The notes beneath the pieces are model-generated. The model was not told the origin of the DNA. It did not search any database and was given only the letters and a program-made list of their open reading frames with translations. DNA of 61,887 nt from Bacillota bacterium (GTDB lineage: Bacteria; Sysuimicrobiota; Sysuimicrobiia; Sysuimicrobiales; Segetimicrobiaceae), in contig JAJPJL010000025.1 in assembly GCA_021324255.1 (NCBI GenBank), forward strand, positions 1-61,887, written 5' to 3'. A program made the position numbers and the translations under genes. Each line of letters starts with the position of its first letter. Positions within the stretch are counted from its first letter, which is position 1. This document shows, piece after piece, positions 3,316 through 35,704 of the stretch.

Positions 3316-3816
3316 GTGTCAGATCGGCCGCGCGATACTCATGTCGTGCCGCGAAAGATCCGGGTCTCCTTTCCAGATAATGGCGTCTCTGCCGTCGCAG
3401 ATCTCTTGGAAGCGGACTGTCCACACACATGTGAGGCGATATGGGACCTGTTGCCGATGCGCGTCACGGTGATACATGACATCTGGTCCGGACACCAGGT
3501 ATTGGCCCACCTGGACAACAAGGTTGTGCTGCCGCCCGAGAACGTTCTCACCTACCTCCCCATCCCGGGCGACATCTTCTATTACTACAGGCCTCCGCAC
3601 TACTTTCGCGGCTCCCCGTATGGCAGGTGTGAATCCGCGGAGATAGGCATCGTCTACGACAGGGACACGAGGCCGCAGGGGCCGCGAGGGCCAGAAGCCG
3701 TGAGCCTCTTTGCGAACATCTCGTCTGATCTGGAGGCGTTCGCCAGGGCTTGCGAAGACATGATCTACCGAGGCCAGAGGGACCTGCTCATCGAGAAGGC
3801 GGGATACATCGGGTGA
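3316..3816 (+). CDS. DUF3830 family protein, copy 1 of 3
   Basis: The GTG at 3316 is preceded by GGGAGGA (3301-3307), giving 166 residues; upstream sequence in the same frame is unrelated and compositionally odd. The family pattern is clear: a basic start KIRVSFPDNGVSAVADLLE, then CPHTCEAIWDLLP, a central PIPGDIFYYYRPPHYFRG, then IGIVYDRDTRPQGPRGP and a C-terminal CEDMIYRGQRDLLI. DUF3830 proteins have a small cyclophilin-like fold and no established function; they often sit beside amide/hydantoin-utilisation and oxidoreductase genes. It overlaps the next copy by four bases. An alternative start is the GTG at VPRKIRV. Confidence 0.82.
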   Translation: MSDRPRDTHVVPRKIRVSFPDNGVSAVADLLEADCPHTCEAIWDLLPMRVTVIHDIWSGHQVLAHLDNKVVLPPENVLTYLPIPGDIFYYYRPPHYFRGSPYGRCESAEIGIVYDRDTRPQGPRGPEAVSLFANISSDLEAFARACEDMIYRGQRDLLIEKAGYIG

Positions 3817-4322
3817 GGAAGCTGATGTTTGAACTGGCTGGAACGAGCGCCGTTGCCGAGATGCACGAGGACGTCGTGCCGAAGACATGTGAGGCGGTCT
3901 GGAATATGCTTCCGGTGGAAGGGATGGCGATCCACGCCAACTGGTCGAGCCGCGAGATCATGCTGCATCTTCACGGCGAGAAGCTCCTTCGGCTTCCGCC
4001 CGAAGGGCCGGCCAGGCGGGGGACCACCGCTCCCGGTGACATCGTCTACTTCTGGAGATCCCCCCAGATGTCTCGCGGCAAGCAATTAGCCTACAGCGCC
4101 GAGTTCCAGCGGGAGCTATCAGAACTCGCCATCTTCTACGGCGATCCCGCGGGCGGCGGCTTGGCCGCGGACGACCCGGCACGCAGCGGCCGAGATTTGA
4201 ACTTGCAGGTCTCCACGTTGTTCGCCACCTTGATCGATATCCCCAAGCCGTTCGCCCAGAAGTGCGAAGACGTCCGCCACAAAGGCCTGCAACGGCTGGT
4301 CGTGACGAGGTTGGAACGGTAG
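3813..4322 (+). CDS. DUF3830 family protein, copy 2 of 3
   Basis: The start is taken at the GTG (3813-3815), which overlaps the TGA of copy 1 as GTGA, a translational-coupling arrangement; the product is 169 residues. The landmarks of copy 1 recur: VPKTCEAVWNMLP, APGDIVYFWRSPQMSRG, ELAIFYGDPAG, VSTLFATL and CEDVRHKGLQRLVV. It has an extra loop (about residues 109-125, GGGLAADDPARSGRD) between the YGDP segment and the LFATL helix. The two Cys positions of copy 1 are kept. It probably forms a hetero-oligomer or a divergent paralogue; function unknown. Confidence 0.8.
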   Translation: MRKLMFELAGTSAVAEMHEDVVPKTCEAVWNMLPVEGMAIHANWSSREIMLHLHGEKLLRLPPEGPARRGTTAPGDIVYFWRSPQMSRGKQLAYSAEFQRELSELAIFYGDPAGGGLAADDPARSGRDLNLQVSTLFATLIDIPKPFAQKCEDVRHKGLQRLVVTRLER

Positions 4323-4362
4323 GCGTGGCCGAGGTGACGCGCGCGGGGGCGAGACCGAACCA

Positions 4363-4812
4363 ATGACGCGGGTGAAGATCGCGCTGGGCCGCGTTGAAGC
4401 GTTCGCGCAACTGGATGAACAGGACGCGCCGAAATCCACGACGTGGCTCAAAGAGATGCTCCCGATCCACGGCCAGGCCATGCACAGCATGGAGAACGGC
4501 CGCGAGGTCTATCTGGTCCTCGATGCTCCCCGCCAGATCGAGGAAGAGAATCAGACGATCTACCAGACCGTCGGGGATCTGATCGTGTACTACAAACCGG
4601 CGATTTTCGTGCGGCCCGAGTGGCCGAGGCATATCCGCGACTTCCTCGTGATCGGATTCATCTACGAGCGTGACAGCGCGATCCGCGGTATGAGCGGTCC
4701 GCTCGCGACGAACCTGGTCGGGAAGATCACGGAGGGGATCGATGCGCTCGCCCGCGAGGCCCCGCGGATGCGCAGGGAAGGCTTCGGACAGATGCGCATC
4801 AGCTTGGCCTAG
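4363..4812 (+). CDS. DUF3830 family protein, copy 3 of 3 (divergent)
   Basis: 149 residues starting at ATG 4363, 40 bases after copy 2. The fold pattern is retained: RVKIALGRVEAFAQLDEQ, APKSTTWLKEMLP, TVGDLIVYYKPAIFVRP, VIGFIYERDSAIRGMSGP and a basic C-terminus. Both conserved Cys residues of copies 1 and 2 are missing (C-T becomes S-T, and CED becomes AP), so the copies are not equivalent. It is followed after 29 bases by an LLM flavin oxidoreductase on the same strand, suggesting one operon 3316-5897. Confidence 0.75.
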   Translation: MTRVKIALGRVEAFAQLDEQDAPKSTTWLKEMLPIHGQAMHSMENGREVYLVLDAPRQIEEENQTIYQTVGDLIVYYKPAIFVRPEWPRHIRDFLVIGFIYERDSAIRGMSGPLATNLVGKITEGIDALAREAPRMRREGFGQMRISLA

Positions 4813-4841
4813 GGAAGCGGAAGGGAGCGCCTGACGGCTTG

Positions 4842-5897
4842 ATGGTCAAATTTGGCGTGGGGATGGCGCCGGTGGAGCCGCTGAAGAAGGTCGTCTCGGT
4901 GGCGAAGCTGGCCGAGGAGCTCGGCTTCGAACACATCGTGCACGCCGATCAGCGATTCTCGGGCGAGAAAGACGTCTTCGTCACCCTTGCCGCGGACGCC
5001 CTGCACACCACGAAGATCAAGCTCGGCCCATGCGTGTCCGATCCGTTCAGCCGGATCCCCGCGATGCTGGCCGCAGCCATCGCCAGCCTCGACGAACTGT
5101 CGGGTGGACGGGCGCTGCTCGCCCTGGGCGCCGGAGGATCCGGGTTCGCCCAGATGCATCTCGACCGAAGGCACGTCAACCAGGCCCTCCGCGAGACGGT
5201 CACCATGATCCGAGGGTTGTTTAGCGGGCAACCGGTCAACTTCGACGGAAGATTGTACAAGCTCACCAACGCACACCTGGGGTTCGCCGTGCGGCCCGGC
5301 ATTCCGATCCTCATCGCGAGCAGAAGCCCGCTCAACCTCGAGCTCGCCGGCGAGATCGCGGACGGCGCGGTGATCGCGACCTACGCCGCAAAGGAGCAGC
5401 TGGCGTTTGCGATCGAGCGGGTGAGGGCCGGGGCCAGGAAGGCGGGCAGGCGCTTGGAGGACGTCCGGCTGATTTCGTGGGTCTACACCTCGATCTCGGA
5501 CGACGGGCGGCAAGCCGTGGAAAACGTCAGGCCGTTCGTGACTCAGGCGCTCGTGAACACCTCCCCCGAGGCCTACCCTGTCATCCTCGACGGCTTCCAC
5601 GAAGCCTTGCCATCGTTTCTTGGGACGTGCCGCGACATGGGGCCGGCGGGATTGGCGACGGCGTACCAGGATCGGACGTACCTCACGGATGAGGTCATCA
5701 AGCGGTTCTCCGTCGCGGGCACGGCCGAGGACTGTGTCAAGAAGATCGAGGAGATCACATCGTTCGGGATCAATGAAATCTGGCTGCGGTGCTTTTCGGC
5801 GCCGCGCTCAGAAGTGAACCACGAAACGGTGATCGTCCCCTTCGCCGAACAGGTGATGCCGCGCTTTACGGCCGACGCTCGCCGCTCCCGCGCCTGA
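4842..5897 (+). CDS. LLM-class flavin-dependent oxidoreductase
   Basis: A 351-residue luciferase-like TIM-barrel enzyme using FMN or F420. Supporting features are the start VKFGVGMAPVEPL, AEELGFEHIVHADQRFSG, the canonical IASLDELSGGRALLALGAGG, RPGIPILIASRSPLNLELAG and the C-terminal FSVAGTAEDCVKKIEEI. Known members are methylene-tetrahydromethanopterin reductase-like enzymes and alkanesulfonate monooxygenases (SsuD group). The ATG at 4842 is preferred over the adjacent TTG because of the upstream GGAAGGGAG. The tandem DUF3830 genes upstream and the SsuABC-type transporter convergent downstream suggest, but do not prove, a sulfonate or cyclic-amide substrate. Confidence 0.88.
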   Translation: MVKFGVGMAPVEPLKKVVSVAKLAEELGFEHIVHADQRFSGEKDVFVTLAADALHTTKIKLGPCVSDPFSRIPAMLAAAIASLDELSGGRALLALGAGGSGFAQMHLDRRHVNQALRETVTMIRGLFSGQPVNFDGRLYKLTNAHLGFAVRPGIPILIASRSPLNLELAGEIADGAVIATYAAKEQLAFAIERVRAGARKAGRRLEDVRLISWVYTSISDDGRQAVENVRPFVTQALVNTSPEAYPVILDGFHEALPSFLGTCRDMGPAGLATAYQDRTYLTDEVIKRFSVAGTAEDCVKKIEEITSFGINEIWLRCFSAPRSEVNHETVIVPFAEQVMPRFTADARRSRA

Positions 5898-5918
5898 GGC
5901 GCCAGCCGGATTCTGCGA

Positions 5919-6689
5919 TCAGGTCGCCGCGTCGACCCGCATGGCATGCAGCTCGAGGAGCTTCGCCCGGACTTTGCTGGCCGCGGCAAAAAATTCGAGG
6001 CTGGAACGCACCGATGGGTCTCGGGCGGACGGGAGATTGACGGGGACTTCCTCCACGATCGCGCCGGGCCTGGGCGACATCACGAAGATCCGATCCGAGA
6101 GAAACACCGCTTCCTCGATATCGTGAGTGACGAGCAGCGCGGTCACGTGCAGTGTCCGGATCAGGTTCCCGAGCTCGTGCTGCAGCGCCTCTTTGGTCAG
6201 CTCGTCCACGCCGGTGAACGGCTCGTCCATCAAGACGATCGACGGCTCATGCACGAACGCGCGCGCGATCGACACCCTGCGCTGCATGCCGCCGGACAGC
6301 TCGATCGGATAGCTCCGTTCAAAGCCCTTCATGCCGATCAGGTCGATGAGCCGGTCGACGTTCCCGAGGTCCCGCTTCTTGACGACCTCCAGCGGCAGCT
6401 TGATGTTGTCGTAGACGGTCCTCCACCGCATCAGGCTCGAATCCTGGAACACGTAGCCGACGATGAAGTGCCCGCCGGCGGTCTCCCGGCGGATGCTCCC
6501 GCCGCTGGGGCCCTCGACCCCGGCGATCAGCCTGAGGAGCGTGCTCTTGCCGCATCCGCTGGGCCCTACGATCGCGACGGTCTCGCCCGGTTGCACCGAC
6601 AGCGAGACGTTCCTGACGGCCTGGACCTCGTGACCCTTGACGGTCGTATAGTGCTTGCTGACGTTCTCGAGAACGACGACGGCGGGCAT
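5919..6689 (-). CDS. ABC transporter ATPase, nitrate/sulfonate/taurine type (SsuB/TauB-like)
   Basis: Translation from the ATG at 6689 gives 256 residues; this start is two bases after the permease stop and is preferred over an in-frame upstream start that would overlap the permease. Walker A is VGPSGCGKST (about residues 41-50), the signature is LSGGMQRRVSIAR, Walker B is IVLMDEPF and the His loop is LLVTHDIEEA. It energises import through the adjacent permease in the cytoplasmic membrane. It forms the last gene of the unit SBP (8539), permease (7477), ATPase, and converges on the LLM oxidoreductase gene. Confidence 0.9.
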   Translation of the reverse strand: MPAVVVLENVSKHYTTVKGHEVQAVRNVSLSVQPGETVAIVGPSGCGKSTLLRLIAGVEGPSGGSIRRETAGGHFIVGYVFQDSSLMRWRTVYDNIKLPLEVVKKRDLGNVDRLIDLIGMKGFERSYPIELSGGMQRRVSIARAFVHEPSIVLMDEPFTGVDELTKEALQHELGNLIRTLHVTALLVTHDIEEAVFLSDRIFVMSPRPGAIVEEVPVNLPSARDPSVRSSLEFFAAASKVRAKLLELHAMRVDAAT

Positions 6690-6691
6690 GC

Positions 6692-7477
6692 TCAACCGGA
6701 CCGGTACCACGGCATCAGCTGCCGCGCGAGCACGATCACGGCGGCATACAGCAGCAGGCCCAGCACGGTTAGGATGGCGAACGCTCCGAACGCCGCCACC
6801 GTGTTGAAGGTGTACTGCGAATTGAGAATCAGGAAGCCGAGGCCGCTGTTGGAGCTCACGAACTCCGCGACGATCGCTCCGACCAATGCGCCCGATACCG
6901 CGATCTTCAGCCCGTCAAAGAAGTACGGAAGCGAGTTGGGCAGCCGAACCTTGAAAAAGATCGTCGCCCGGCTGGCGCGCAGGGATTGGAGCAGGTAGAT
7001 GAGGTTGCGGTCGACATCGGTGAGACCGGTACTGACGTTGATCACGATCGGGAAGAAGGTGAGGATCACGATGAGCAAGACCCTCGACGTGTTGGAGAAG
7101 CCGAGCAAAATGTAGATGATGGGCGCGATCGCCACCTTCGGCAACACCTGCAACGCCACGATGTACGGCATGAGGATCTGCCGTAGGGTCGCGGAGAGCG
7201 TGATCACCACGGCGATCGCGAAGCCGACGACGATGCCGATCAGGGCCCCGGTGACGGCCTCGTTCAAGGTGATCGACGTCTGTTGCACCCAGTCGATGCG
7301 GCCGGCGAAGAAGCCTTGGATGATCGCGGACGGTGATGGAAACAGGTACGCGGGGATCCGGAACAACGCGACCAACAGCTGCCACAACACGACGCCGACC
7401 ACAAAGGAGACAAGCGGAAGGCCGTATGCCGCGAGCCCCGGCAGGCTCAGCCGTGTCGTTCTGCCGATCCCACCCAT
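6692..7477 (-). CDS. ABC transporter permease, SsuC/TauC-like
   Basis: 261 residues with about six membrane helices, starting with a positive N-terminus and LPLVSFVVGVVLWQLLVALF. The EAA-type cytoplasmic loop is LRASRATIFFKVRLPNSLPY, as in binding-protein-dependent permeases of the nitrate/sulfonate/taurine and HMP-precursor group. One subunit type with one ATPase suggests a homodimeric channel. It lies 12 bases downstream of the binding-protein gene. Confidence 0.9.
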   Translation of the reverse strand: MGGIGRTTRLSLPGLAAYGLPLVSFVVGVVLWQLLVALFRIPAYLFPSPSAIIQGFFAGRIDWVQQTSITLNEAVTGALIGIVVGFAIAVVITLSATLRQILMPYIVALQVLPKVAIAPIIYILLGFSNTSRVLLIVILTFFPIVINVSTGLTDVDRNLIYLLQSLRASRATIFFKVRLPNSLPYFFDGLKIAVSGALVGAIVAEFVSSNSGLGFLILNSQYTFNTVAAFGAFAILTVLGLLLYAAVIVLARQLMPWYRSG

Positions 7478-7489
7478 GGCGGGAACCCG

Positions 7490-8539
7490 CTACGGGCGCT
7501 CCACGAACCGGTTCGTGTACAGCGCGGCGGGATCGAACGTCCGGTTGATGTTGAAGAGCGTCTTGAGCTCTGGAAGTGTCGACGCGACCAGATTGGGATC
7601 GAACCACCCCAGTTGGAGCGGCTTCATCTTCTGGACGGTCGCGGCGTCCAGCCCGTACTGCGCCTTGAGCGCGATCTTCCACTCGGCCAACGTCTGATCG
7701 TAGTCGCGCCCCGGGTTCTTGGCCACGAAGTCCTTGGTGCACTGCTCCGGCTTCGTCGCGCAGAAGTAGAGCGCCTCCGTGAGCGCGGTGGCGACCGCCC
7801 CGGCGACGGCCGGATCGTTGTCCACGAGACTCTTCTGGACCACTACCGCCCCCAGGGGCGAGGGCATCTGATAATCGCCGAACAGGAAGGAACCGACCCG
7901 CTGCCCCTGCCGCAGCGCGACGATGTTCAGGCTGGCCAATCCCCGGGCAAACTCGCAGATGGCGTCGACCCTTCGCTGCAGCAACGCCGGGTGGAGGGCG
8001 GCAAAGCCGATATTCTGAATCGTTACCTTGTCCTTTGCGATGCCTTGCTTTTGGAGGAAGATATCGAGGTACTGCTCGGACAGACTGCCGGTCGGAACCC
8101 CGATCTTCTTGCCGACGAGATCGGCTGGCCGTTTGATCCCACCCGACTGCAGGAAGATCAACGCGACCGGATTCCGCGGCTCGGTGGCGGCGATGCCGAT
8201 GAGTGCAGGCGCGCCGGGGTTCTTGTCTGCCAGCAGCATCTCGTCCAGGATGTCCCCCTGCGTGAACGCGAGGCCCTTCCGGTCGGCCGCGACTGCTTGC
8301 ACGGCCTGCGACGTGCCTTCCAGCGTCACGAAGTTCACCCGGAGGTTGTGCCTGGCAAAGATTCCCTCCGCATCCCCCGCAAAATCCTGGGGCGCGCTGC
8401 TCGTGATGCCGCCCACGTAGTCGGTCACCGTCACGGGCGAGGTGAGCGTCGAGGGACTGGAAAAGCCGGCACGGTCCGCGAGCACGACACCGAACACGAT
8501 CACGACGACCACGATCCCGGCCATGAGCGCTCGAGACAT
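7490..8539 (-). CDS. ABC transporter substrate-binding protein, NMT1/SsuA/THI5-like
   Basis: The ATG at 8539 is preceded by GGAGGAAGAGG, giving 349 residues; longer in-frame starts lack such a site. A hydrophobic N-terminus (MAGIVVVVIVFGVVLADRA) acts as signal or anchor. The body follows the type II periplasmic fold seen in NMT1/SsuA proteins: GDAEGIFARHNLRVNFVTLE, SGGIKRPADLVGKKIGVPTG and a late NPGRDYDQTLAEWKIA. Substrates of this family include alkanesulfonates, taurine, nitrate and pyrimidine precursors; the sequence does not decide. It is divergent from the ComDE-like genes. Confidence 0.88.
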   Translation of the reverse strand: MSRALMAGIVVVVIVFGVVLADRAGFSSPSTLTSPVTVTDYVGGITSSAPQDFAGDAEGIFARHNLRVNFVTLEGTSQAVQAVAADRKGLAFTQGDILDEMLLADKNPGAPALIGIAATEPRNPVALIFLQSGGIKRPADLVGKKIGVPTGSLSEQYLDIFLQKQGIAKDKVTIQNIGFAALHPALLQRRVDAICEFARGLASLNIVALRQGQRVGSFLFGDYQMPSPLGAVVVQKSLVDNDPAVAGAVATALTEALYFCATKPEQCTKDFVAKNPGRDYDQTLAEWKIALKAQYGLDAATVQKMKPLQLGWFDPNLVASTLPELKTLFNINRTFDPAALYTNRFVERP

Positions 8540-8911
8540 CCTCTTCCTCCTCGGTCCTCCGCGTCCCCGCGAGAACAAGCCGGCAATGGGGCTCGGCAAG
8601 GAATCCGGCGCTGGCGCCGCACCAAGAAACGCCCGCCGGTAAGCCCACACCATGCTCGGGACGTTATATCTTCGGTGGCGCTTCGGAATATCCCGTGAGG
8701 CGGCGAGTCGAGTCGTCCAGAATGACCAAGGCCGCAGGCGGGGTCATTGGATGCCGCGGCGTCGCCGGCGAGTGCGATGCCGCTCCGAGCCCCTGAGCCC
8801 GCAAATGAATTGCGACCCGCAGCCGCGAACTCACCATCGGATGCGCCAACACCCGTCGTTGCGCATCGCCGGTCACTACGCGGGGAGCCAGCGACGGCCC
8901 GGGAGGCGAGC
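8540..8911. promoter_or_regulatory. Divergent intergenic region between the SsuA-like and ComD-like genes
   Basis: No gene is supported here; the open frame running from 8747 into ComD is of low quality before 8912. The minus strand carries a -10-like TATAAC (plus-strand positions 8664-8669) about 125 bases before the SBP start, without a matching -35. I see no inverted repeat strong enough to call an operator. Confidence 0.35.
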
Positions 8912-9424
8912 GTGCCGGTTTCCGTTGCGAATTCTCAAGTGATTTACGATGCCCTCAAGGCGAGCGGCATCAGCTTGCTGTCCGCCCTTCCCGAGACGTG
9001 GCTCGTGCACCTCATCCGCATGGCGGAAGACGACCCGGAGATGATCCTCGTGCGCCTCGCGAAGGAGGAGGAAGGGATCGGCATCTCTGCCGGCGCGCAC
9101 CTCGCCGGAGCGAAATCGGCCATGCTGATGCAGAATCACGGCTTCCTGCAGAGCGTGAACGGCATCGTCTCGCTGGCACGGCTCTATCGTATCCCCCTGC
9201 TCATGCTGATCAGCTACCGGGGCGAGATGGGAGAGCGCGATCCGTGGCAGACGGAGGGCGGGAGCGTGACCGAGCCCGTGCTGCGGGCCCTCGACATCCC
9301 CTACGAACGGCTGGAGGAACCGGGCCATGTGCGACTCCGGATCCGGAAGGCACAGGCGCTGGCAGAATCCTCGCTCAAGCCGGTTGCGCTCCTGCTGTGC
9401 CGGGACCTGATGTGGGAGGAATGA
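8912..9424 (+). CDS. Thiamine-diphosphate decarboxylase alpha subunit, sulfopyruvate decarboxylase (ComD)-like
   Basis: The GTG at 8912 with GGAGG at 8902-8906 gives 170 residues, the size of ComD. Landmarks are QVIYDALKASGISLLSALPE, then LAKEEEGIGISAGAHLAGAK, whose Glu is in the position of the ThDP-activating glutamate, then MQNHGFLQSVNGI and RIPLLMLISYRGEMGERDPW. In ComDE and phosphonopyruvate decarboxylase this half contributes the pyrimidine-binding domain. The known reactions are sulfopyruvate to sulfoacetaldehyde plus CO2, or phosphonopyruvate to phosphonoacetaldehyde. It overlaps the beta-subunit start by four bases. Confidence 0.85.
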   Translation: MPVSVANSQVIYDALKASGISLLSALPETWLVHLIRMAEDDPEMILVRLAKEEEGIGISAGAHLAGAKSAMLMQNHGFLQSVNGIVSLARLYRIPLLMLISYRGEMGERDPWQTEGGSVTEPVLRALDIPYERLEEPGHVRLRIRKAQALAESSLKPVALLLCRDLMWEE

Positions 9425-10041
9425 CGGCGCCCGCCGAACCTGTTCACTCTCGAGGACCGATGATGCTTCGCATCGACGCGTTGCGAGCGATCTATCCCAG
9501 TTTAGCGCGATGCATCGTGGTCACGATCATGGGAGCCGTCTCTGCCGAGCTGCAATCCCTCGGACATCGCCCAGGGTTCTTTTACCTGCTCCATTCCATG
9601 GGGCTGGCGTCGTCCGTCGGGCTCGGCATCGCGCTCCTTCGGCCGGAATTGCACGTGGTCGTGCTGGACGGCGACGGCTCGATCCTCATGAACCTCGGCG
9701 GCCTCACGACCATGGCGCGCTACCGCCCGCGCAACCTCACACACATCGTGTTCGACAACGAGAGCCTGTTGTCGGTGGGCGGGTTCCCGACCGCCACCGC
9801 CACCGGGAGCGACATCGCGGGGATGGCCGCGGCCGCGGGCGTCCCCCGCACGACGACCGTGCACACGCTCGCCGAGTTCACGGCCGCGTTCGAAGAGTCG
9901 CTGGGTGGGAACGAGCTGACAACGCTCGTGGCCAAGGTGGAGGCGACGGGTCCTCCCGTGTACCTGACCGATCTGCCCATGCTCGAGAATCGCTTTCAGT
10001 TCCAGCGCCACCTGAGGAATCTGCGCACCGGTCAGGGATGA
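9421..10041 (+). CDS. Thiamine-diphosphate decarboxylase beta subunit, sulfopyruvate decarboxylase (ComE)-like
   Basis: Starting at ATG 9421 (ATGA overlap with ComD) the product is 206 residues; ATG 9460, behind CGAGGA, is an alternative start. The ThDP/Mg motif is present as LDGDGSILMNLGG with the trailing Asn in HIVFDNESLLSVGG. HSMGLASSVGLGIALLRPE and FPTATATGSDIAGMAAAAG match the pyrophosphate-binding half of ComE and phosphonopyruvate decarboxylases. With the preceding gene it should form an alpha/beta enzyme in the cytoplasm. The neighbouring SsuABC-like transporter and LLM enzyme make a sulfonate route reasonable. Confidence 0.85.
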   Translation: MTAPAEPVHSRGPMMLRIDALRAIYPSLARCIVVTIMGAVSAELQSLGHRPGFFYLLHSMGLASSVGLGIALLRPELHVVVLDGDGSILMNLGGLTTMARYRPRNLTHIVFDNESLLSVGGFPTATATGSDIAGMAAAAGVPRTTTVHTLAEFTAAFEESLGGNELTTLVAKVEATGPPVYLTDLPMLENRFQFQRHLRNLRTGQG

Positions 10042-10100
10042 GCAAGGGACGTCCGGCACGCGGCGCGCAGCGAGGCGGCCGGACGAGGGGGCACGGGACC

Positions 10101-10880
10101 ATGGCGAGCGTGTTGACGCAGTTGGTGCAGGAGCTCAGGGCGGGACGGATCATGGTGGTAGACCTGTCACAGCCGCTCGGACCGGAGACGCCGGTCATCG
10201 GGTTGCCGCCCATGTTCGCACCGTCCCCGCCGTTCTCGATGGAGGTGATTTCTCGTTACGACGAACGCGGGCCGGCCTGGTACTGGAACACGATCTCGCT
10301 CGGGGAGCATAAGGGCACGCACTTCGATGCCACCGTGCACTGGATCACGGGCAAGGATCTCCCGGACAACACCTGCGAGACCATCCCGGCACACCGCCTT
10401 GTCGGCCCCGCCGCCGTCATCGATGTGACGGACGACGTTGCGCGCAACCACGATTTCCTGCTGCTGCCGGAACACATTGCCGCATGGGAGGAGCGCCATG
10501 GGCGGATTCCCGCGGCATCCTGGGTGCTGCTTCGGTCCGGATGGAGCCGGCGCCACGCTCCCGCGGACTTCCTGAACGTCGGACACAACGGGCCGCACAC
10601 GCCCGGCTTCCACAAGACCGCATCGGAGCTGCTCGCCCGCGAGCGGGACATCCTTGGGGTGGGCGTCGAGACGGTGGGCACCGACGCCGGTCAAGCAGGA
10701 ACGTTTGACCCTCCCTTTCCTAACCACGCGATCATGCACGGCGCGGGAAAGTTTGGACTGACGAGCTTGTGCAACCTGGATCGACTTCCCGCGACCGGCG
10801 CGGTAGTCATCGCGGCCCCGCTGAAGATCGTCGGCGGCAGCGGGAGCCCGGTCCGGGTTCTCGCTCTCGTTCCGGCCTGA
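10101..10880 (+). CDS. Cyclase family protein (kynurenine-formamidase-like metal hydrolase)
   Basis: 259 residues from ATG 10101. The metal-binding signature HKGTHFDATVH is intact (His, His, Asp, His pattern), and DLSQPLGPETPVIG is the usual N-terminal strand of this family. The C-terminus RLPATGAVVIAAPLKIVGGS is typical. Members hydrolyse N-formylkynurenine, isatin or related cyclic amides. The gene follows the ComE-like gene by 59 bases on the same strand and probably belongs to its operon; the actual substrate is not evident. Confidence 0.85.
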   Translation: MASVLTQLVQELRAGRIMVVDLSQPLGPETPVIGLPPMFAPSPPFSMEVISRYDERGPAWYWNTISLGEHKGTHFDATVHWITGKDLPDNTCETIPAHRLVGPAAVIDVTDDVARNHDFLLLPEHIAAWEERHGRIPAASWVLLRSGWSRRHAPADFLNVGHNGPHTPGFHKTASELLARERDILGVGVETVGTDAGQAGTFDPPFPNHAIMHGAGKFGLTSLCNLDRLPATGAVVIAAPLKIVGGSGSPVRVLALVPA

Positions 10881-10909: not shown

Positions 10910-11929
10910 TCACCGGCGCGGGTGAGATGACGCATCCAACAGCGGTTCCTCTACCGGCGGTGTGTCCTTCCCCATCGGCGAGGAAACAGTCGGTGACGGG
11001 CCGTCCGCGTACATCCGGAGCACCGCCTCCAGCGCAGCGAGGCCATCCTCGCCGTTCGGCTCGGGCGGCCGGCCCTCACGGAGGGCGGCGACGAATTCCG
11101 TGGCTGCACCGAGGAACCGGTCTTCCGGCATCCCCGCCACCTTGACGACGTCGCCGCCGGCCGTCCAACGCATCTCGCGGCCGGTTGTGATGTGAAGCGA
11201 GCCTATCGAACCAAAAACCTGCGTGTCCCAGCTGCCGAGCGCGGCGGCGGGCGCCTTGTGCTGCACGACCGTGCCGACGGCGCCCGACCGGAAGCCGAGC
11301 AGCGCGGTGACGGTATCTTCGACCTCCGACCGGTACCCGAGCGTGCGGACCTCGGCCCGGACGGTCGCGATGTCGTCGCCCAGCAGAAAGCGCGCGCGGT
11401 CGATCTGGTGGATGCCGTTGTAGAACATCATGCCGCCGCCGGCGTGGCGGCGGCTCCAGACCCACGACGGCATATCGCTCGCGCCGCTCGCCATGATGTC
11501 GACGATGAGCCTCGGTTGACCGATATGGCCGCGCGCGATGACCCGGCGAGCCTCGGCCACCTCGGGACGGAACCGGTGTACGAAGGACACCATCACGAAC
11601 CGCCCGGCGCGCCGGGCGCGCTCGAGGAGTGCCGCGGCGTCGTCGCGGCCGGTCGCCATCGGCTTTTCCATGAGGACGTGACAGCCGGCGTCGATCGCGC
11701 GCATCCCGGCCTCCGCCAGGTAGACATGGGGCACGGCGATGACCATGGCGTCCGGGCGTGCGGCAAGCAGGTCGTTGAGGCTCGGGACCACGGACACGCC
11801 GTCCGCCTCGGCGTGCCGCCGGCGCTCGGCATCGACATCGGCCGCGATCAGATCAACGCCCGAGAGCCGGCGAAACGCGCGGAGATGCCTGCTGCCGGCA
11901 CTCCCCATCCCCAGGATGCCGATCCGCAT
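10910..11929 (-). CDS. Gfo/Idh/MocA family oxidoreductase
   Basis: 339 residues with an N-terminal Rossmann domain (RIGILGMGSAGSRHLRAF), the EKPMA motif whose Lys is catalytic, and the C-terminal alpha/beta domain with GGGMMFYNGIHQIDRARFLL. Members are NAD(P)-dependent dehydrogenases of sugars, inositols or amino-sugar derivatives. It is the last gene of the ten-gene minus-strand array and converges on the cyclase gene. It begins one base after the VOC gene stop, so the two are likely cotranslated. Substrate unknown. Confidence 0.9.
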   Translation of the reverse strand: MRIGILGMGSAGSRHLRAFRRLSGVDLIAADVDAERRRHAEADGVSVVPSLNDLLAARPDAMVIAVPHVYLAEAGMRAIDAGCHVLMEKPMATGRDDAAALLERARRAGRFVMVSFVHRFRPEVAEARRVIARGHIGQPRLIVDIMASGASDMPSWVWSRRHAGGGMMFYNGIHQIDRARFLLGDDIATVRAEVRTLGYRSEVEDTVTALLGFRSGAVGTVVQHKAPAAALGSWDTQVFGSIGSLHITTGREMRWTAGGDVVKVAGMPEDRFLGAATEFVAALREGRPPEPNGEDGLAALEAVLRMYADGPSPTVSSPMGKDTPPVEEPLLDASSHPRR

Positions 11930-11930
11930 C

Positions 11931-12386
11931 CTAGGCGGTCCGGGGACCTGCGTCGGGTCCCTCGCCCGGCTTGTACACCTGCATGAACTCGGTCTCGAGT
12001 CCGGAGAGCCGGTCCTGTAAAAATGCCACCCAGCCTTCGGAGTGTTTGTGCGCGCCGGTCACCCGACAGGCGGCGCAGGGCTTGAGGACCGCACCGTTCG
12101 AGACCGCGGCGGCGAGCTCGCTCTCGATGTCGTCGGTCGTGTAACAGATGTGGTGCACGCCTTCGTCGCGGTGTTCCTCGATGTAACGCGCGAACCGGCC
12201 GGCAGCGTCCCACGATCGACACAATTGAATCTGAATGCCGCCCAGCATGAAATGCGCCTCGCTCGACCGGGCCTTCTCGAATTCATGACGCGTGACGCCC
12301 TTCACGCCGAGCAGACCCTCGTACTTCTTGAGCGCCGCGTTGACGTCACGTACGGCGATGGCTATGTGTTTAATCCCGGTAATCAT
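11931..12386 (-). CDS. VOC (glyoxalase/methylmalonyl-CoA epimerase-like) protein
   Basis: 151 residues with two beta-alpha-beta-beta-beta modules of the vicinal-oxygen-chelate fold. Likely metal ligands are the first His (IKHIAIAVRD), the central GVHHICYTTDD and the Glu of GLETEFMQVYKP. The closest memory match is the methylmalonyl-CoA epimerase/lactoylglutathione-lyase group, but VOC sequences do not fix the reaction. It sits between the Gfo/Idh and dihydroorotase-like genes in one transcription unit. Confidence 0.85.
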   Translation of the reverse strand: MITGIKHIAIAVRDVNAALKKYEGLLGVKGVTRHEFEKARSSEAHFMLGGIQIQLCRSWDAAGRFARYIEEHRDEGVHHICYTTDDIESELAAAVSNGAVLKPCAACRVTGAHKHSEGWVAFLQDRLSGLETEFMQVYKPGEGPDAGPRTA

Positions 12387-12404
12387 CGCTGCCCCCCTTC
12401 CCCT

Positions 12405-13784
12405 TCAAGCGGGCCGTACCCACTCGCCCCAGCCCGGCTCGCCCGTGACGCGGCCGCCACGCATGACGACGCGACCCCGGACGATGGTCATGACCGCGAC
12501 ACCGCGAAATCGCATGCCGTCGTACACGAGTGCGGCGTCGCGCGCTTTCGTGTAGAGCCTGGTATGGTCGTGGACCCACTCGGCCGTTGCATCCACGATC
12601 GTGATGTCGGCGTCCGCCCCGGCGACGAGCGCCCCCTTGCGCGGCCACAGTCCGAACAGACGCGCGGGGGTCTCGCTCACGGCGCGCACGAGCTGCGGCA
12701 GCGTCAGCCGCTCTTCGTGCACCGCGGTGAGCATGAGCGGCAGGAACTCCTCGAGGCCCGGGAGCCCGGGCGGCGCGGCCCAGATGTCGCCGTCAGGAGC
12801 GCCTTTCTCCTCGGGGAGGAACGGCGAATGGTCGGTACCGATCACGTCGATCCGCCCCCCGCGGAACGCGTTCCAGAGCCGGTCCACGGCGGCCCCGTCG
12901 CGCAGCGGAGGATTACACTTGGCGTACGGGCCCCAGGCGTCGAGCGCCCCGTCCGTGAGCATGAGGTAGTGCGGACACGTCTCGGCGGTCACCCGGAGGC
13001 CACGATCCTTGGCTGCCGCGACCATGTCGACGGCATCCGCGGCGCTCACATGTGCGATCTGGAGGCGTGCGCCCGTGGCGGATGCGAGTGCGATGCTCTG
13101 CGCCACCGAGGCCGTTTCCGCTACGGGCGGCCGGGCGGCCGCGTGGGCTCTGCCGTCACGGCGCCCCCCGGCCCGAACCGCAGCGGTCGTCCGGTCGATG
13201 ATCTGCTGCTCTTCGCAGTGGACGACATGGAGCAGGCCCGTACGGGACGTGCGCTCCATGACCCGCAGCATGTCGCCCGCGTCCGGACAGCAGATACCGA
13301 TGAACTCGGTCTCACGGCCGGGCACGGGATCCGTCCGGAAGGTCTTGAAGGCAATCGCGCCCGCCGCGGCCAGCGCTTCGATCTCGTCCAAATTGTCCGG
13401 GTTCGCGCCGGCATAGAGGCCGAAGTTGACGATCGAACGAGGGCCGACGATCGCCGCGCGGTCGCGCAGAATCGCGGCCGTATGCACCGGCGGAATCGCG
13501 ATCGGCATCTCGAGGATCGTCGTGATGCCGCCGGCGGCGGCCGCGCGCGTGCCGGTGATCCAGTCTTCGCGCTCCAGTCGGCCCGGCTCGCGCAGGTGCA
13601 CGTGCGTGTCGATGACGCCGGGCAAGACATACCAGGCCGTCGCATCGATGGTTTCGCGCGCCGCAGGCAGCAGACCGTCCCGATCCACCGCGGTGATCTT
13701 GCCGTCCGCGATAGCCACTCCTCCCCGGCGGGCCCCCTCGCTCGTGACGAGCGTCCCGCCGCGGATGACCAGGTCGGCGATCAC
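12405..13784 (-). CDS. Dihydroorotase/allantoinase-like amidohydrolase
   Basis: The GTG at 13784 overlaps the upstream stop (GTGA), giving 459 residues; the much longer open frame upstream is a shadow of the deacylase gene. Metal ligands are visible: VIDTHVHLREPG (H61, H63), the carbamylated Lys in AIAFKTFR (about K147), LHVVHCEE, QIAHVSAAD and the catalytic Asp in VIGTDHSPF. Family members open cyclic ureides such as dihydroorotate, allantoin and hydantoins. Because it is embedded in a transport/catabolic operon it is unlikely to be the pyrimidine-biosynthetic PyrC. Confidence 0.88.
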   Translation of the reverse strand: MIADLVIRGGTLVTSEGARRGGVAIADGKITAVDRDGLLPAARETIDATAWYVLPGVIDTHVHLREPGRLEREDWITGTRAAAAGGITTILEMPIAIPPVHTAAILRDRAAIVGPRSIVNFGLYAGANPDNLDEIEALAAAGAIAFKTFRTDPVPGRETEFIGICCPDAGDMLRVMERTSRTGLLHVVHCEEQQIIDRTTAAVRAGGRRDGRAHAAARPPVAETASVAQSIALASATGARLQIAHVSAADAVDMVAAAKDRGLRVTAETCPHYLMLTDGALDAWGPYAKCNPPLRDGAAVDRLWNAFRGGRIDVIGTDHSPFLPEEKGAPDGDIWAAPPGLPGLEEFLPLMLTAVHEERLTLPQLVRAVSETPARLFGLWPRKGALVAGADADITIVDATAEWVHDHTRLYTKARDAALVYDGMRFRGVAVMTIVRGRVVMRGGRVTGEPGWGEWVRPA

Positions 13785-14770
13785 CCCGTGATCTCCTCTT
13801 CGACCACGCCGTAGAAAACGCACCAATCGCCGAGTTGCACGGAGGGATTGGTCCGCATCCCGAATGGAATGCCGTCGAATGGCGCCTGCACGTCCGCGAC
13901 CACGTCGCCGGACAGGCTGTAGATGGTCGCGAGCCGCTCGCCTTGCCGCACACGCCGGCGCAGCACCGACGGCTCCGACACCCAGAGCCCCGACGCCGGG
14001 GCCAGCACCACCGTCTTCTGATAGCCGAGCATCCACCGTTCCGCGTACTGCGCCGCGCCGTCGATCATCTTGTAGTGGCGGAGGATGTTCACAAAGCCCT
14101 CGGCGAGCGCATCGGCGTTGCCTTGAAACCGGCCGGGAAACGTATCGCACAAGCCGCCAAGTTCCACCGTGATCGCCGGCTTCCCGTGCTGTCGCATCGC
14201 GGCCTGGGGACTGCCGCGCTCGCTCGTCTGCCTCAGCAGCAGGTCCCACCGCGGCCCCATCGCCTTTGCGAGTTCGATCCCGGAGGGCGTCGCCGTGTAG
14301 AACATCGCGTAGGCGAGGTACGAGTGCGCGCCTCCGGAGTGGACGGCAACCTCCAGGTCGGCGTGCTCCACCATCGTCGTGTAGTGGGCGTACGCGATCC
14401 GTTCCGTGAGGTGACCGTCCGGCCGCCCCGGATAGATGCGGTTCAGATCGTAGGTGAACAGATCCGCCGGGTTGCCTCGCGAGCTGAATTCGAACGCGCC
14501 GACGTTGACCACCGGGACGCCGACCACGGTGCCACGCAGCCGGGCAGGATCCAGTCGCTCCACGAGGCGCAGGACCGCGAGCGGCCCTTCCGGCTCGTCG
14601 CCGTGCACCGCGCCGTCCAACCACAGCAGGGGCCCTTCTTCCACACCGTTCACGACGATGAGCGGGATCTCAATCGCCCCGCCGCCGGACCGGCGACCTA
14701 CCGGGATGACGCCCGTCGCCCGCTCGCCCGCGTTCGCGCGCGCGGTGCCGATCACACACTCGTTCTTCAT
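13781..14770 (-). CDS. Succinylglutamate desuccinylase/aspartoacylase (M14-like) family deacylase
   Basis: The ATG at 14770 follows GGGAGGTCGGAGA and gives 329 residues. The zinc site is recognisable as GAVHGDEPEG (H56, E59), a second His in VAVHSGGAHS and the catalytic Glu in ITVELGG. The C-terminus (VADVQAPFDGIPFG) resembles the barrel found in AstE/AspA relatives. Known relatives hydrolyse N-acyl amino acids or ectoine intermediates. Its stop overlaps the start of the cyclic-amidohydrolase gene, so the two could act in sequence on an N-acylated, ring-opened substrate (inference). Confidence 0.85.
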   Translation of the reverse strand: MKNECVIGTARANAGERATGVIPVGRRSGGGAIEIPLIVVNGVEEGPLLWLDGAVHGDEPEGPLAVLRLVERLDPARLRGTVVGVPVVNVGAFEFSSRGNPADLFTYDLNRIYPGRPDGHLTERIAYAHYTTMVEHADLEVAVHSGGAHSYLAYAMFYTATPSGIELAKAMGPRWDLLLRQTSERGSPQAAMRQHGKPAITVELGGLCDTFPGRFQGNADALAEGFVNILRHYKMIDGAAQYAERWMLGYQKTVVLAPASGLWVSEPSVLRRRVRQGERLATIYSLSGDVVADVQAPFDGIPFGMRTNPSVQLGDWCVFYGVVEEEITG

Positions 14771-14789
14771 TCTCCGACCTCCCATGCGC

Positions 14790-15818
14790 CTACTCGCCGT
14801 CAGAACCGGATGGGGTACCGCCCAATCCGCGGAATCGCCGCACCCACATGACGGTCTCTCGCAAGCCGTCGTCCAACGCGTACCGCGGGACGAAACCGAG
14901 CGCCCGGATCCTGGTGATGTCCAGCGGCCCACGGCGTTGCACCGCGTTCCCATCCACGTCCACCATCCCGTCCACGACCCCCACGGGGGTCGCGCCAGGG
15001 TCGGCCGGACGCCAGGAAAACCCGGGCGCGATGCGCCCGAGCGTATCCGCGACCGCGGACAACGGCGCCGGGGCGCCCGAGGACACATTGTAGCAGCGGT
15101 GCGCCAGTTGGGGCGCGTCGATCAACAGCCTCGCGGCGCGCGCGATGTCGCCGGCGTACGTCCAGTCGCGCGTGCGGTCGGCGCCGCGCAGCCGAACCAC
15201 CCGGCCGGCCGCCGCCGCGTTGACCAGCGCGTAGATCACCGACATCACCGTGCGCGCACCGGTTGGGCGCTCCGTTGGGCCGTATGGAGCCCCAATACGG
15301 AGCGTGGCGGCGCCGAGGCTGGCGCTGTTCGCCGCCGCCACGAGCTGCTCGCTGGCGTACTTCGTCATCGTGTACAAGCTGCCAAGCCGCACCGGCGCCG
15401 CCTCGGATAAGCCGGCGGCGGGATCGGTCTCGCCGTACACGCCGGACGAGCTAATGTAGACGAAACGGCGTGTCCGCGTCCGCGCGGCCCAGTTCAGCAT
15501 GTGCGCCGTGCCAAGGAGGTTGACCGCAATCACCCGCTCGGGCTCGCGGTCCTCGACGTCACGTGTGGATGTGACGGCCGCAGCGTGGACGATCGCGTCC
15601 GGGGTTTCGCCCGTCGCCGCCTCGAGCTGGTCCGGCGCGGCGAGGTCCAGTCGAATGAAGCGAACGCTTCGGGCGGTCGCTCCGAGAAAACACCTCGCGC
15701 GCCCGTCCGGCGGATCGACATCCACCGCAACCACGCGCCGGCCCGCCTCCGCGAACTCCTTGACCAAATGCAGGCCGATGAACCCGGTCGCGCCGGTCAC
15801 GAGGACCGTCGTCGTCAT
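14790..15818 (-). CDS. NAD-dependent epimerase/dehydratase (extended SDR)
   Basis: 342 residues starting at the ATG that overlaps the Ldh-type gene stop (ATGA). The nucleotide-binding motif is VTGATGFIGLHL near residue 6, the catalytic Ser lies in YISSSGVYG, and the YxxxK pair is in SLYTMTKYASEQ. This is the GalE/RmlB-like extended SDR class, usually acting on nucleotide sugars, although catabolic members act on free sugar acids or ketoses. It has a complete C-terminal substrate domain. The setting in an uptake operon argues for a catabolic role. Confidence 0.88.
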   Translation of the reverse strand: MTTTVLVTGATGFIGLHLVKEFAEAGRRVVAVDVDPPDGRARCFLGATARSVRFIRLDLAAPDQLEAATGETPDAIVHAAAVTSTRDVEDREPERVIAVNLLGTAHMLNWAARTRTRRFVYISSSGVYGETDPAAGLSEAAPVRLGSLYTMTKYASEQLVAAANSASLGAATLRIGAPYGPTERPTGARTVMSVIYALVNAAAAGRVVRLRGADRTRDWTYAGDIARAARLLIDAPQLAHRCYNVSSGAPAPLSAVADTLGRIAPGFSWRPADPGATPVGVVDGMVDVDGNAVQRRGPLDITRIRALGFVPRYALDDGLRETVMWVRRFRGLGGTPSGSDGE

Positions 15819-16870
15819 GGCAGCGGCTCCGGAAACGGCACCGCAAATTCGCCGCCGATCTCGCGCAGCCGCTCGACCGTATCGTCCGGGAGTTCGGCGC
15901 CACGCGCGATGCCGTCGTCCCGGCGTTCCCACTCGGGGTCCCCCGGCAGTCGGACGGCATCGATGCCGGGCCACCTCGGGGCGCCGTGCACTTCGCTCGA
16001 CACCGCCGCGACCCCGGCGCGCAGCGCCGCCGCCCCGCCAAACGCGTCGGGGTCGAGCGCGAGGAGCAAATGACTCACCCCCTGCGGCCGGGCGACCTCG
16101 TATGGCGACCCGACCGCGGACCCGACGAGACCGCCTGCGAGCCCGCCGGTGAGCAGATCCACCATGACCGCGATCGCGTAACCCTTGTAGCCGCCCATCG
16201 GCGCGAGCAAGGCATCGACCGCGGCGCGCGCGTCGGTCACCGGCCGACCGCTCGCATCTACGGCCCAACCTGCCGGGATGCTGCGGCCTGCGGCCGCATG
16301 CTGCCGGATGACGCCCTTGCCCGATGACGCGTTCGAGAGATCCAGCACGACGGGGCGGTCGCTCGGACCGGGAACCGCGATGCTCCACGGGTTCGTGCCT
16401 ACGAGCGCGACGGATGCGCCCCACGCGGGCATTTCGGGGCTGGCGTTGGTAAACGCGAGGCCGACGAGTCCCGCGCGCGCCGCCATCAGAGTAAAATACG
16501 ACGCCGTGCCGAAGTGGTTGCTGTTGCGCGCGGCGACCGCGCCGACTCCACCGCCTCGAGCTTTGGCCATGGCCAGCGCCATCGCGCGGTACGCGACGAC
16601 CTGGCCGAAGCCGTTGCCGCCGTCCAGCAACGCGGCGGCCGGGCGATCGAGCAGCACGCGAATCGCCGCGCATGGCGTGATGCCGCCTTCGCGGACCCGA
16701 CGCGCGTACACGGCAAACCGGACGACACCCTGGTTCTGGAACGGTGCCGTCCGAAGCTGCGCGTCGATCAAACAGTCGGTGAGAATCCGCGCCTCATCGC
16801 GACCCGCCCCCGCGGCGGCCAGCAAGCTGAGGCCAAACGTCCGGAGGGCCTCGATCGCAAAGCGCCGCAC
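15815..16870 (-). CDS. Ldh family (malate/L-lactate dehydrogenase type 2) oxidoreductase
   Basis: The GTG at 16870, eight bases after the DppC stop and behind AAAGGACGG, gives 351 residues; sequence upstream in this frame belongs to dppC. Family landmarks are RNSNHFGTASYF, FTNASPEMPAWGA, GTNPWSIAVPGP and APMGGYKGYAIA. This NAD(P)-dependent family includes malate, ureidoglycolate, 2,3-diketo-L-gulonate and (2R)-3-sulfolactate (ComC) dehydrogenases. The presence of ComDE-like genes 6 kb away makes a ComC-type role worth testing, but they are in different operons. Confidence 0.88.
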   Translation of the reverse strand: MRRFAIEALRTFGLSLLAAAGAGRDEARILTDCLIDAQLRTAPFQNQGVVRFAVYARRVREGGITPCAAIRVLLDRPAAALLDGGNGFGQVVAYRAMALAMAKARGGGVGAVAARNSNHFGTASYFTLMAARAGLVGLAFTNASPEMPAWGASVALVGTNPWSIAVPGPSDRPVVLDLSNASSGKGVIRQHAAAGRSIPAGWAVDASGRPVTDARAAVDALLAPMGGYKGYAIAVMVDLLTGGLAGGLVGSAVGSPYEVARPQGVSHLLLALDPDAFGGAAALRAGVAAVSSEVHGAPRWPGIDAVRLPGDPEWERRDDGIARGAELPDDTVERLREIGGEFAVPFPEPLP

Positions 16871-16878
16871 CGCTGCGA

Positions 16879-17778
16879 TTACCGTCCTTTCAGGCGCGGG
16901 TCGAGCACCGCGCGGAGATAGTCGCCCACCAGATTGATCGCCACCACGGTGACGAACACCAGCAGGCCGGGGAAAAGCATGAGCCAGGGCGCGTACCGCA
17001 TGAATTCGCGCCCTTCGCTCAACATCGTACCCCACTCGGGCGTGGGCGGCTGAACGCCAAGCCCCAGGAATCCGAGGGATGAGGTGTCAAGGATGGCCGA
17101 ACCGACATACAGTGTGGCGAGCACGATGATTGGCGGGAGCGCGTTCGGCAACACGTGCCGCCGGATGAGGCGCGCCGCGCTTGCGCCGATCGCGCGGCCG
17201 GCCTCGATGTAGGTATGCTCGCGAATCGCAAGCGCCGTGCCGCGTACGATGCGGGCGAACCGCGGGATCCCCGCCACGCCGATCGCGATGACGACGTTTT
17301 GGATGCCGACACCCAGGACGGCGATGATCAACAGCGCAAGCATGATGGGCGGAAAGCCGAGCATGATATCGATCACGCCCGATCCGACGGTATCGACCCG
17401 TCCGCCGAGGAACCCCGCCGCCAGGCCGAGGAACGATCCGAGCACGACGGAGACCGAGACGGCCATGACCCCGATCGGGAGGGAGATGCGGGCTCCGAAC
17501 AGCAAGCGGCTGAACAGGTCCCGGCCGTATCGATCCGTGCCGAACCAATGAGCCGGGCCCGGCGGCGACAGCGCGGGACCCGTCGCCATGGCGGACGGAT
17601 CGTACGGGCTCAGCACCGGGGCCAGCATCGCGGCGACCACCACCATCCCGAGCACGGCCGTCGCGAACATGGCGAGAGGGTACCGGTGCACATGCGTCAG
17701 ACGGCGCCGGCGGCCCGCGGCAGCGCCCCGCGGGCCGCCGGTCCGCTCCGCGATCGCGAGCGGCTTGACGTGCATCAT
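16879..17778 (-). CDS. ABC transporter permease, DppC/OppC type (operon 1)
   Basis: 299 residues starting at the ATG that overlaps the DppB stop (ATGA). A long basic N-terminus precedes a helix (LAMFATAVLGMVVVAAMLAPVL), followed by the DppC hallmark HWFGTDRYGRDLFSRLLFGA and the EAA loop EAGRAIGASAARLIRRHVLP. The end, LRAVLDPRLKGR, is typical. It pairs with the DppB gene to form the membrane channel of a peptide- or amide-type importer. No DppD/DppF ATPases are nearby. Confidence 0.92.
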   Translation of the reverse strand: MMHVKPLAIAERTGGPRGAAAGRRRRLTHVHRYPLAMFATAVLGMVVVAAMLAPVLSPYDPSAMATGPALSPPGPAHWFGTDRYGRDLFSRLLFGARISLPIGVMAVSVSVVLGSFLGLAAGFLGGRVDTVGSGVIDIMLGFPPIMLALLIIAVLGVGIQNVVIAIGVAGIPRFARIVRGTALAIREHTYIEAGRAIGASAARLIRRHVLPNALPPIIVLATLYVGSAILDTSSLGFLGLGVQPPTPEWGTMLSEGREFMRYAPWLMLFPGLLVFVTVVAINLVGDYLRAVLDPRLKGR

Positions 17779-18695: not shown

Positions 18696-18766
18696 ACGAC
18701 CTCGTAACGCTCACGCGAGTCGGTGCCGCCGCCGCGCACGCACGATCGAGCGCGCGGGGCTCTGTT

Positions 18767-34984: not shown

Positions 34985-35704
34985 TCATGACTCGCCCCTC
35001 AGGCGAGGATCGAAGGCATCCCGCGCCCCGTCGCCGGCGAGGTTGAAGGCGGCGACCGCGAAGAAGATCGCGATCGCAGGAAACAGCACGACCCACCAGT
35101 GATCGCGCATATACTGACGGCCATCGGCCACCATGCGGCCCCAATCCGGCGTCCCGGGCTCGGCGCCGAAGCCGATAAAGCTCAGCGCCGCCGTGGTGAG
35201 GATAATCGCGCCGAGATCGAGCGTCGCCTGCACCACCACGGGACTGAACGCGTTGGGGAGCACATGCTGGAGAAGCACCCGCAGGTGTGGCGCGCCGATG
35301 GAGCTGCTGTATTTCACCGCTTCCGCGGTCAGCTCGCTGCCGGTAGTGAACTTCACGCCGCGGCGCAGCTTGAAGGTGTAGACCGTGCCGTTTCCCGAGA
35401 CGGTCCACGATTCGGCCAGGTACGGCTTGGCGTCGAGACTGTAGCCCGGCAGGTACGTTAGGGTGTCGTAGAGCTCGGTCAGCACCCACCAGTTGCGGTT
35501 ACCGCGCGCTGTCTGCGGATCCAGGTTGTCCTGCACCTGATCCCAGGCGACCTGCAACGTACCGGAAATCGCACGCTGCGCGCTCGCCGTACCTACCGCG
35601 CGCGACAGCCAGCCGGCGCCGAACCCCACGCCGAGGGCGCCGCCGGCCAGGGCATGGCGCAGCGCGTCGCGCCGCGAGAAGGTCGCCTTATGCCGTCCGT
35701 CCAT
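34985..35704 (-). pseudogene. In-frame chimera: N-terminus of a family-5 SBP fused to the C-terminus of a DppC permease
   Basis: Residues 1-135 are a typical SBP start: Tat signal FSRRDALRHALAGGALG, then LQVAWDQVQDNLDPQTARGN and GVKFTTGSELTAEAVKYS. From about residue 136 (35297-35308) the text switches without a stop to the C-terminal third of a DppC permease: IGAPHLRVLLQHVLPNAFSP, LSFIGFGAEPGTPDWGRMV, RDAFDPRLRGES. Using the intact operon at 16879-20401 as a ruler, the missing part (SBP C-terminus, all of dppB, DppC N-terminus) is about 2.8 kb. The product cannot work as either protein. It is a deletion scar or an assembly join. Confidence 0.85.

Follow-up and report, generated by a model that had tools for sequence, protein, structure and literature searches.

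Three DUF3830 genes, a luciferase-like oxidoreductase gene and an ABC importer form a conserved unit apart from a neighbouring ComD-ComE-cyclase cassette

Do the ten genes at 3316–10880 of contig JAJPJL010000025.1 (Bacillota bacterium, assembly GCA_021324255.1) serve a single pathway? They encode three DUF3830 proteins (D1, D2 and D3), a protein of the luciferase-like monooxygenase (LLM) family, an SsuABC-like ATP-binding cassette (ABC) importer, and a ComDE-like thiamine diphosphate (ThDP) decarboxylase with a cyclase-family hydrolase. A sequence-only reading of the window, by which we mean the whole stretch of 61,887 nucleotides that was analysed, had joined them into a candidate organosulfonate route with DUF3830 proteins as new components. 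The ten genes are two independent modules and not one sulfonate route: the real unit, conserved in relatives, is D1-D2-D3-LLM together with an NMT1/Ssu-type ABC importer, and ComD-ComE-cyclase (8912–10880) is an independent cassette. For the first module we favour, with a probability of roughly 0.55, a hetero-oligomeric D1-D2-D3 enzyme that handles an imported small molecule together with an F420-dependent LLM protein and the importer.

A Pfam profile search recovered all ten genes, with families and coordinates as they had first been assigned:

3316..3816, plus strand: D1, DUF3830 subunit 1 (PF12903, 87.8 bits; AlphaFold2 model; residue tables)
3822..4322 (probable start 3825), plus strand: D2, DUF3830 subunit 2 (PF12903, 64.0 bits; orthologues)
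4363..4812, plus strand: D3, DUF3830 subunit 3 (PF12903, 70.1 bits; AlphaFold2 model)
4842..5897, plus strand: LLM oxidoreductase, Mer-like and probably F420-class (PF00296 Bac_luciferase, 191.7 bits)
5919..6689, minus strand: ABC importer ATPase, SsuB-like (ABC_tran; orthologues)
6692..7477, minus strand: ABC importer permease, SsuC-like (BPD_transp_1, 89.5 bits; orthologues)
7490..8524, minus strand: substrate-binding protein, NMT1/SsuA-like (NMT1, 92.6 bits; conserved)
8912..9424, plus strand: ComD-like alpha (PYR) subunit of a split ThDP 2-oxoacid decarboxylase (TIGR03845, 132.6 bits)
9460..10041, plus strand: ComE-like beta (PP) subunit (TIGR03846, 125.7 bits; tree)
10101..10880, plus strand: cyclase-family metal-dependent hydrolase, isatin-hydrolase-like (Cyclase, 126 bits; phmmer to 5nna, E 6e-93)

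D1, D2 and D3 all exceed the curated PF12903 cut-off of 26 bits and are thus DUF3830 members; D2 shares 33% and D3 28% identity with D1. The D1-D2-D3-LLM genes lie on one strand with gaps of 5–50 bp, SsuBCA are convergent to them, and ComD-ComE-cyclase diverge from SsuA. Comparison with orthologues favours starts at 3825 (D2), 4842 (LLM), 6689 (SsuB) and 8524 (SsuA), and, in the second operon, at 8912 (ComD), 9460 (ComE) and 10101 (cyclase). The corresponding Pfam spans are 4839–5897 for Bac_luciferase, 5919–8653 (minus strand) for the importer families, 8747–10041 for TPP_enzyme_N and TPP_enzyme_C, and 10086–10880 for Cyclase. The genomes compared below are metagenome-assembled genomes (MAGs) with broken contigs, read with a home-made gene caller that missed some genes.

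A conserved DUF3830-LLM-importer unit

The D1-D2-D3-LLM genes with convergent SsuBCA are kept in four other genomes (G001, G009, G007 and L058, the last being APA_bin_98, a MAG of unstated phylum); the D1-D2-D3-LLM-SsuBCA order is seen in G000, G001, G009 and L058, and also in G007, where no SsuC gene was called. Identities to the window are 80–92% for the G001 and G009 copies and 61–75% for the unit proteins of L058, in which D1 is present as a tblastn match although no gene was called. D2 orthologues reach 87–92% identity in five genomes. SsuB orthologues (74–89%) lie beside D1-3-LLM at L039, L042, L043 and L058, and the SsuC orthologue is kept beside the unit at L039, L043 and L058. In G003 and G005, D1-D2-D3-LLM follows another NMT1-type importer, which is encoded in the same direction and has a gene for an isochorismatase-family hydrolase among its own. 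This conserved synteny bears out the view that the three DUF3830 genes, the LLM gene and an importer of the Ssu/NMT1 type belong together, and because they do, DUF3830 truly takes part in an undescribed uptake and catabolic module; the sulfonate chemistry assigned to that module, and its link to ComDE, found no support. At L058, an Amidohydro_3 gene (11479–13062) is inserted between D3 and the LLM gene, a clue to the substrate class.

The expectation that all the units would be neighbours in relatives held for this module but failed for ComD-ComE-cyclase, which was beside the DUF3830 unit in none of the six relatives that have the unit; the units are therefore not co-conserved. The cassette is kept in G002, G004 and G009 (loci L134–L136, 77–89% identity) with unrelated flanks and away from DUF3830, which speaks against a shared pathway: G002 and G004 have the cassette and lack D1 and D2 homologues, and in G009 it occupies another place than the D1-3 unit. 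In G001 the ComDE-cyclase genes are missing, with a SnoaL-like gene in their place, and the downstream minus-strand operon is kept (GFO, glyoxalase-like, allantoinase-like, aspartoacylase-like, epimerase and Ldh_2 genes).

DUF3830 sets of three and their LLM partner

To see how DUF3830 domains are arranged elsewhere, we searched the whole phylum set (43 genomes of one order) with the family profile and grouped the domain coordinates by hand. DUF3830 was found in ten of the 43 genomes, with 12 domain hits in the genome of the window. The domains come mostly in sets of three: fourteen loci in eight genomes carry exactly three, a count that partly reflects common descent of the triplet loci. In some of these loci each domain has its own gene (window type, C94 type and G017); in the others a double-domain fusion is accompanied by a single-domain protein (C65/C71, C42, C37 and C6 types). 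D1, D2 and D3 form separate clades in the tree, as do both fused halves and the accompanying singles. Two contig ends of the genome, C94:1–423 and C65:30–509, carry halves of one LLM gene that is intact in G001 C72 (L213), so these contigs are probably adjacent. At L046 (6552–7544), L050 (5041–6090) and L051 (15150–16145), ornithine-cyclodeaminase/mu-crystallin genes lie beside two-domain DUF3830 loci, which suggests imino- or amino-acid substrates there. The natural fused pair at L046 occupies 5365–6237.

The conserved polar positions of the family are H54, E75, D/E109, Y114 and R116. D1 keeps all five (with E at 109); D2 has D in place of R116 and D3 has V in place of the acid at 109. Where D1 has Glu109, D2 and the first fused half also have E, D3 has V, the second fused half G and the singles K; at the His54 site the second fused half has N. 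Because pocket residues are divided among subunits in this way, the sequences suggest that D1–D3 form hetero-oligomers with specialised subunits.

The AlphaFold models of D1 and D3 (predicted local distance difference test scores of 88 and 88.5) matched 3KOP best, with Z 22.7 and 22.4. 3KOP is an uncharacterised protein from Arthrobacter sp. FB24 with the same family and fold and the same invariant P, LP, E, G, Y and G columns; by comparison, the window carries three diverged paralogues in a row and an LLM gene. The cyclophilin-like domain of McbB (3x27) and KslB followed; against McbB, D1 gave Z 18.5 and a root-mean-square deviation of 1.7 Å over 131 residues, and D3 gave Z 18.1 and 1.6 Å over 127 residues. 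Clearly lower matches were TM1367 (Z 14.7 for D1, 15.7 for D3) and true cyclophilins (12.6 and 12.5). The DUF3830 profile also matched that of the cucumopine-synthase/McbB family, built from five McbB-like proteins of actinobacterial genomes (E 2.8e-7, 122 columns). DUF3830 is thus a homologue of the McbB/KslB cyclophilin-like domain and shares H54 and Y114 with the Pictet-Spenglerases McbB (3x27), KslB (9nsc) and cucumopine synthase. Where McbB has His87, which we take to be another active-site residue, DUF3830 proteins carry Glu, Asp, Val, Lys or Gly. The McbB catalytic residue is Glu97 (PMC9366743); we placed it through the 3x27 alignment (residue equals chain index minus 21), five residues past the shared Tyr. 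In contrast to McbB and KslB, DUF3830 is here split over three single-domain proteins without the helical bundle: PF18631, a model that does detect members in 7 of 44 actinobacterial genomes, had no hit in the genome of the window. DUF3830 thus has the cyclophilin-like domain of the McbB/KslB type but lacks PF18631 and, judged by the Glu97 position, does not qualify as a Pictet-Spenglerase.

We then considered the LLM protein. Its nearest solved relative is the F420-dependent methylenetetrahydromethanopterin reductase Mer (1z69; E 6e-48 over 315 residues, compared with E 2e-7 for SsuD), although it reaches 185 bits against the Mer cut-off of 349, and its operon context is import and catabolism rather than one-carbon metabolism. 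F420 should be available because CofD, CofH and CofE of the same genome exceed their cut-offs. With closest relatives that are F420-dependent and F420 synthesis genes in the genome, the protein is probably an F420-class oxidoreductase. The second triplet of the genome (on contigs C94/C65; unbroken in G001 C72) has the order D-D-D-LLM too, and its LLM protein passes the F420 subfamily model TIGR03619 (205.7 bits, cut-off 166.9). In the LLM tree, DUF3830-linked proteins separate into two deep clades: one is the window type, and the other, clade B, consists of six proteins, all from DUF3830 loci (support 98/93). Clade B speaks to relatedness and is not an unbiased census, since some tree members were chosen for nearness to DUF3830. 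The 16 LLM hits of the genome amount to 14 genes once split ones are joined; presuming uniform gene placement, 0.05 of these would be expected within 300 bp of a DUF3830 locus and 2 were found (P 0.001), and 0.28 within 7 kb, where 4 were found (P 1e-4). F420-class LLM genes thus adjoin DUF3830 sets in independent loci. Among haloarchaeal LLM neighbourhoods, no gene annotated DUF3830 was found in the three regions read, two of which hold HyuAB.

Sulfonate chemistry and the ComD-ComE-cyclase cassette

The sulfonate route would run through import, LLM desulfonation, ComC oxidation of sulfolactate and ComDE action on sulfopyruvate, with DUF3830 assisting. The family names favour it superficially, as do the tree, where the window ComE joins true ComE (90/91), and the Ldh_2 gene, whose best model is sulfolactate dehydrogenase. 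However, no SsuABC, SsuD, ComDE, ComC or Xsc model reaches its cut-off, and ComDE is not co-conserved with DUF3830. The LLM protein, Mer/F420-like, scores 52.1 of 518.2 bits with the SsuD model TIGR03565 and so gives no backing to an alkanesulfonate monooxygenase. A sulfonate-specific importer finds none either, as all three models stay below their curated cut-offs (SsuA 49/163.5, SsuB 153/395, SsuC 89.6/347 bits). The Ldh-family gene noted at 15815 is there (15815–16870), with sulfolactate dehydrogenase as its best NCBIfam model, but at 224 of 500 bits (NF040650) it falls short of ComC. As for sulfoacetaldehyde handling, the best Xsc score in the genome is 319.7 of 676.4 bits (TIGR03457), in a MAG that is 94.85% complete and may have a gene missed. 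On profile cut-offs, with a positive control included, and on synteny we rejected the sulfonate pathway as very improbable.

What, then, might the cassette do? The window pair shares with ComDE the split ThDP alpha/beta architecture and the adjacent genes, but lies below the equivalog cut-offs (ComD 132.6 bits with TIGR03845, cut-off 147.95; ComE 125.7 bits with TIGR03846, cut-off 221.5), so that the profiles do not identify a sulfopyruvate decarboxylase. In the Leisingera control, ComE passes at 244.5 and ComD, at 147.6, is just below 147.95. The position of the window ComE next to true ComE has weak support (90/91), with long branches meeting. Phosphonopyruvate decarboxylase was rejected as well (TIGR03297, 79 and 125 of 312 bits; apart from AepY in the tree).

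Unlike ComDE, the window pair is accompanied by an isatin-hydrolase homologue, which matches isatin hydrolase A (5nna) over its full length. The cyclase keeps the His/His/Asp metal ligands and the WxW motif of isatin hydrolases (5nna, 5nmp, 4j0n), and has GLTS where their signature is GLQC/GLAS (motifs and signature from PMC6117287). Its metal motif is HxGTHxDxTxH, compared with an ending in PxH in isatin hydrolase (P to T). The most likely chemistry of the cassette would begin with the hydrolytic opening of an isatin-like cyclic keto-amide; the resulting 2-oxoacid would then be decarboxylated to the aldehyde. Isatin hydrolysis yields isatinate, itself a 2-oxoacid, and a ThDP decarboxylase could chemically turn isatinate into 2-aminobenzaldehyde; we found no isatinate decarboxylase in the literature. 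The oxo-acid role first suggested for these genes stays plausible, on a different, isatinate-like substrate.

Candidate functions and wider context

DUF3830 is a widespread family, present in Actinomycetota, Acidobacteriota, plasmids of Pseudomonadota and archaea. Within four genes of 48 actinobacterial DUF3830 loci (centred, where the DUF3830 gene was uncalled, on the gene nearest the match position), we counted class III aminotransferases (24), GntR regulators (19), arylmalonate-decarboxylase/maleate-isomerase-like proteins (18), aldehyde dehydrogenases (14) and 2-hydroxyacid dehydrogenases (14). On annotated plasmids, DUF3830 adjoins genes for GntR, amino-acid-type importers, aminotransferase, flavin adenine dinucleotide oxidoreductase or urea carboxylase. 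No sulfur genes were prominent among the neighbours in the actinobacterial loci and annotated plasmids, which point in common to the breakdown of small molecules that contain nitrogen.

The architecture of the unit is established; its chemistry and substrate we infer as follows. The importer would take up a small organic molecule, probably one that contains nitrogen. D1, D2 and D3 would form one enzyme with unequal pockets, D1 keeping every conserved polar residue and D2 and D3 each lacking one. The F420-dependent LLM protein would reduce or oxidise either the substrate of this enzyme or its product. Several points weigh against this proposal. Function does not follow from a common fold, and none of 45 DUF3830 sequences has an acid at the McbB Glu97 position. 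The LLM protein may use flavin mononucleotide rather than F420, and the adjacency statistics depend on the uniform placement they presume. Sets of three partly reflect common descent; some other DUF3830 loci carry two domains or a single one, with no run above three, and at G003 C21, left out of the 14 loci, DppA and LLM genes separate a fused pair from a single domain. Solved binding-protein structures gave weak matches only (a ThiY-like FAMP-binding protein, 3ix1, E 7e-5) and identified no substrate.

DUF3830 proteins might instead be soluble ligand-binding, regulatory or chaperone-like partners of importers and oxidoreductases. Their occurrence next to varied importers (Ssu, Dpp, polar amino acid) and the absence of Glu97 would suit such partners, as would the lack of a documented catalytic activity, no open paper that mentions the family having been found; but the strong conservation of H54, E75, D/E109, Y114 and R116 and the homology to a catalytic domain make this rather unlikely. 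That all ten genes form one N-heterocycle (isatin- or indole-like) pathway, from import through DUF3830/LLM and ring opening by the cyclase to ComDE decarboxylation, is highly improbable: the SsuBCA and ComDE-cyclase operons do diverge from one intergenic region (8525–8911) and the cyclase does resemble isatin hydrolase, but the cassette lies elsewhere in G009, is present in G002 and G004 although these have no D1-3 unit, and does not adjoin the DUF3830 unit in six genomes. A more specific form of the enzyme proposal draws on the Pictet-Spenglerases, which join amines to carbonyl compounds and to which DUF3830 is linked by fold. DUF3830 triplets, derived from the same ancestral domain as those enzymes, would then open or rearrange imported amine-carbonyl adducts, and a dedicated F420-dependent LLM reductase would take the imine or oxo product. 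We hold this to be improbable; if true, triplets and LLM would be a catabolic counterpart of Pictet-Spengler chemistry, with opine- or cyclic-amino-acid-like adducts.

Elsewhere in the window, a minus-strand operon (10910–20401) with an aspartoacylase-like gene, the Ldh_2 gene and a Dpp importer is partly conserved in G001. The product of 12405–13784 (minus strand) exceeds the allantoinase AllB cut-off (386 bits compared with 358), and this is possibly a separate ureide/amide catabolic operon. A single open reading frame at 34985–35704 (minus strand) joins the N-terminal half of a DppA-type binding protein to a DppC-type permease C-terminal half, which either a deletion or a join made in assembly would explain. 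At 49371–53026 and 53094–57925, HyuA/HyuB oxoprolinase-type genes lie beside a LivFGHK branched-chain-type importer, and three DegT-type aminotransferases are found at 41665, 44884 and 48050.

These comparisons make the function of DUF3830 testable, since the family now has its nearest functional relative, a redox partner in the F420-class LLM protein, and an architecture of three-domain sets whose pockets would be unequal. The isatin-hydrolase/2-oxoacid-decarboxylase cassette is set apart from the DUF3830-LLM-importer unit, with a direct in vitro prediction of its own.

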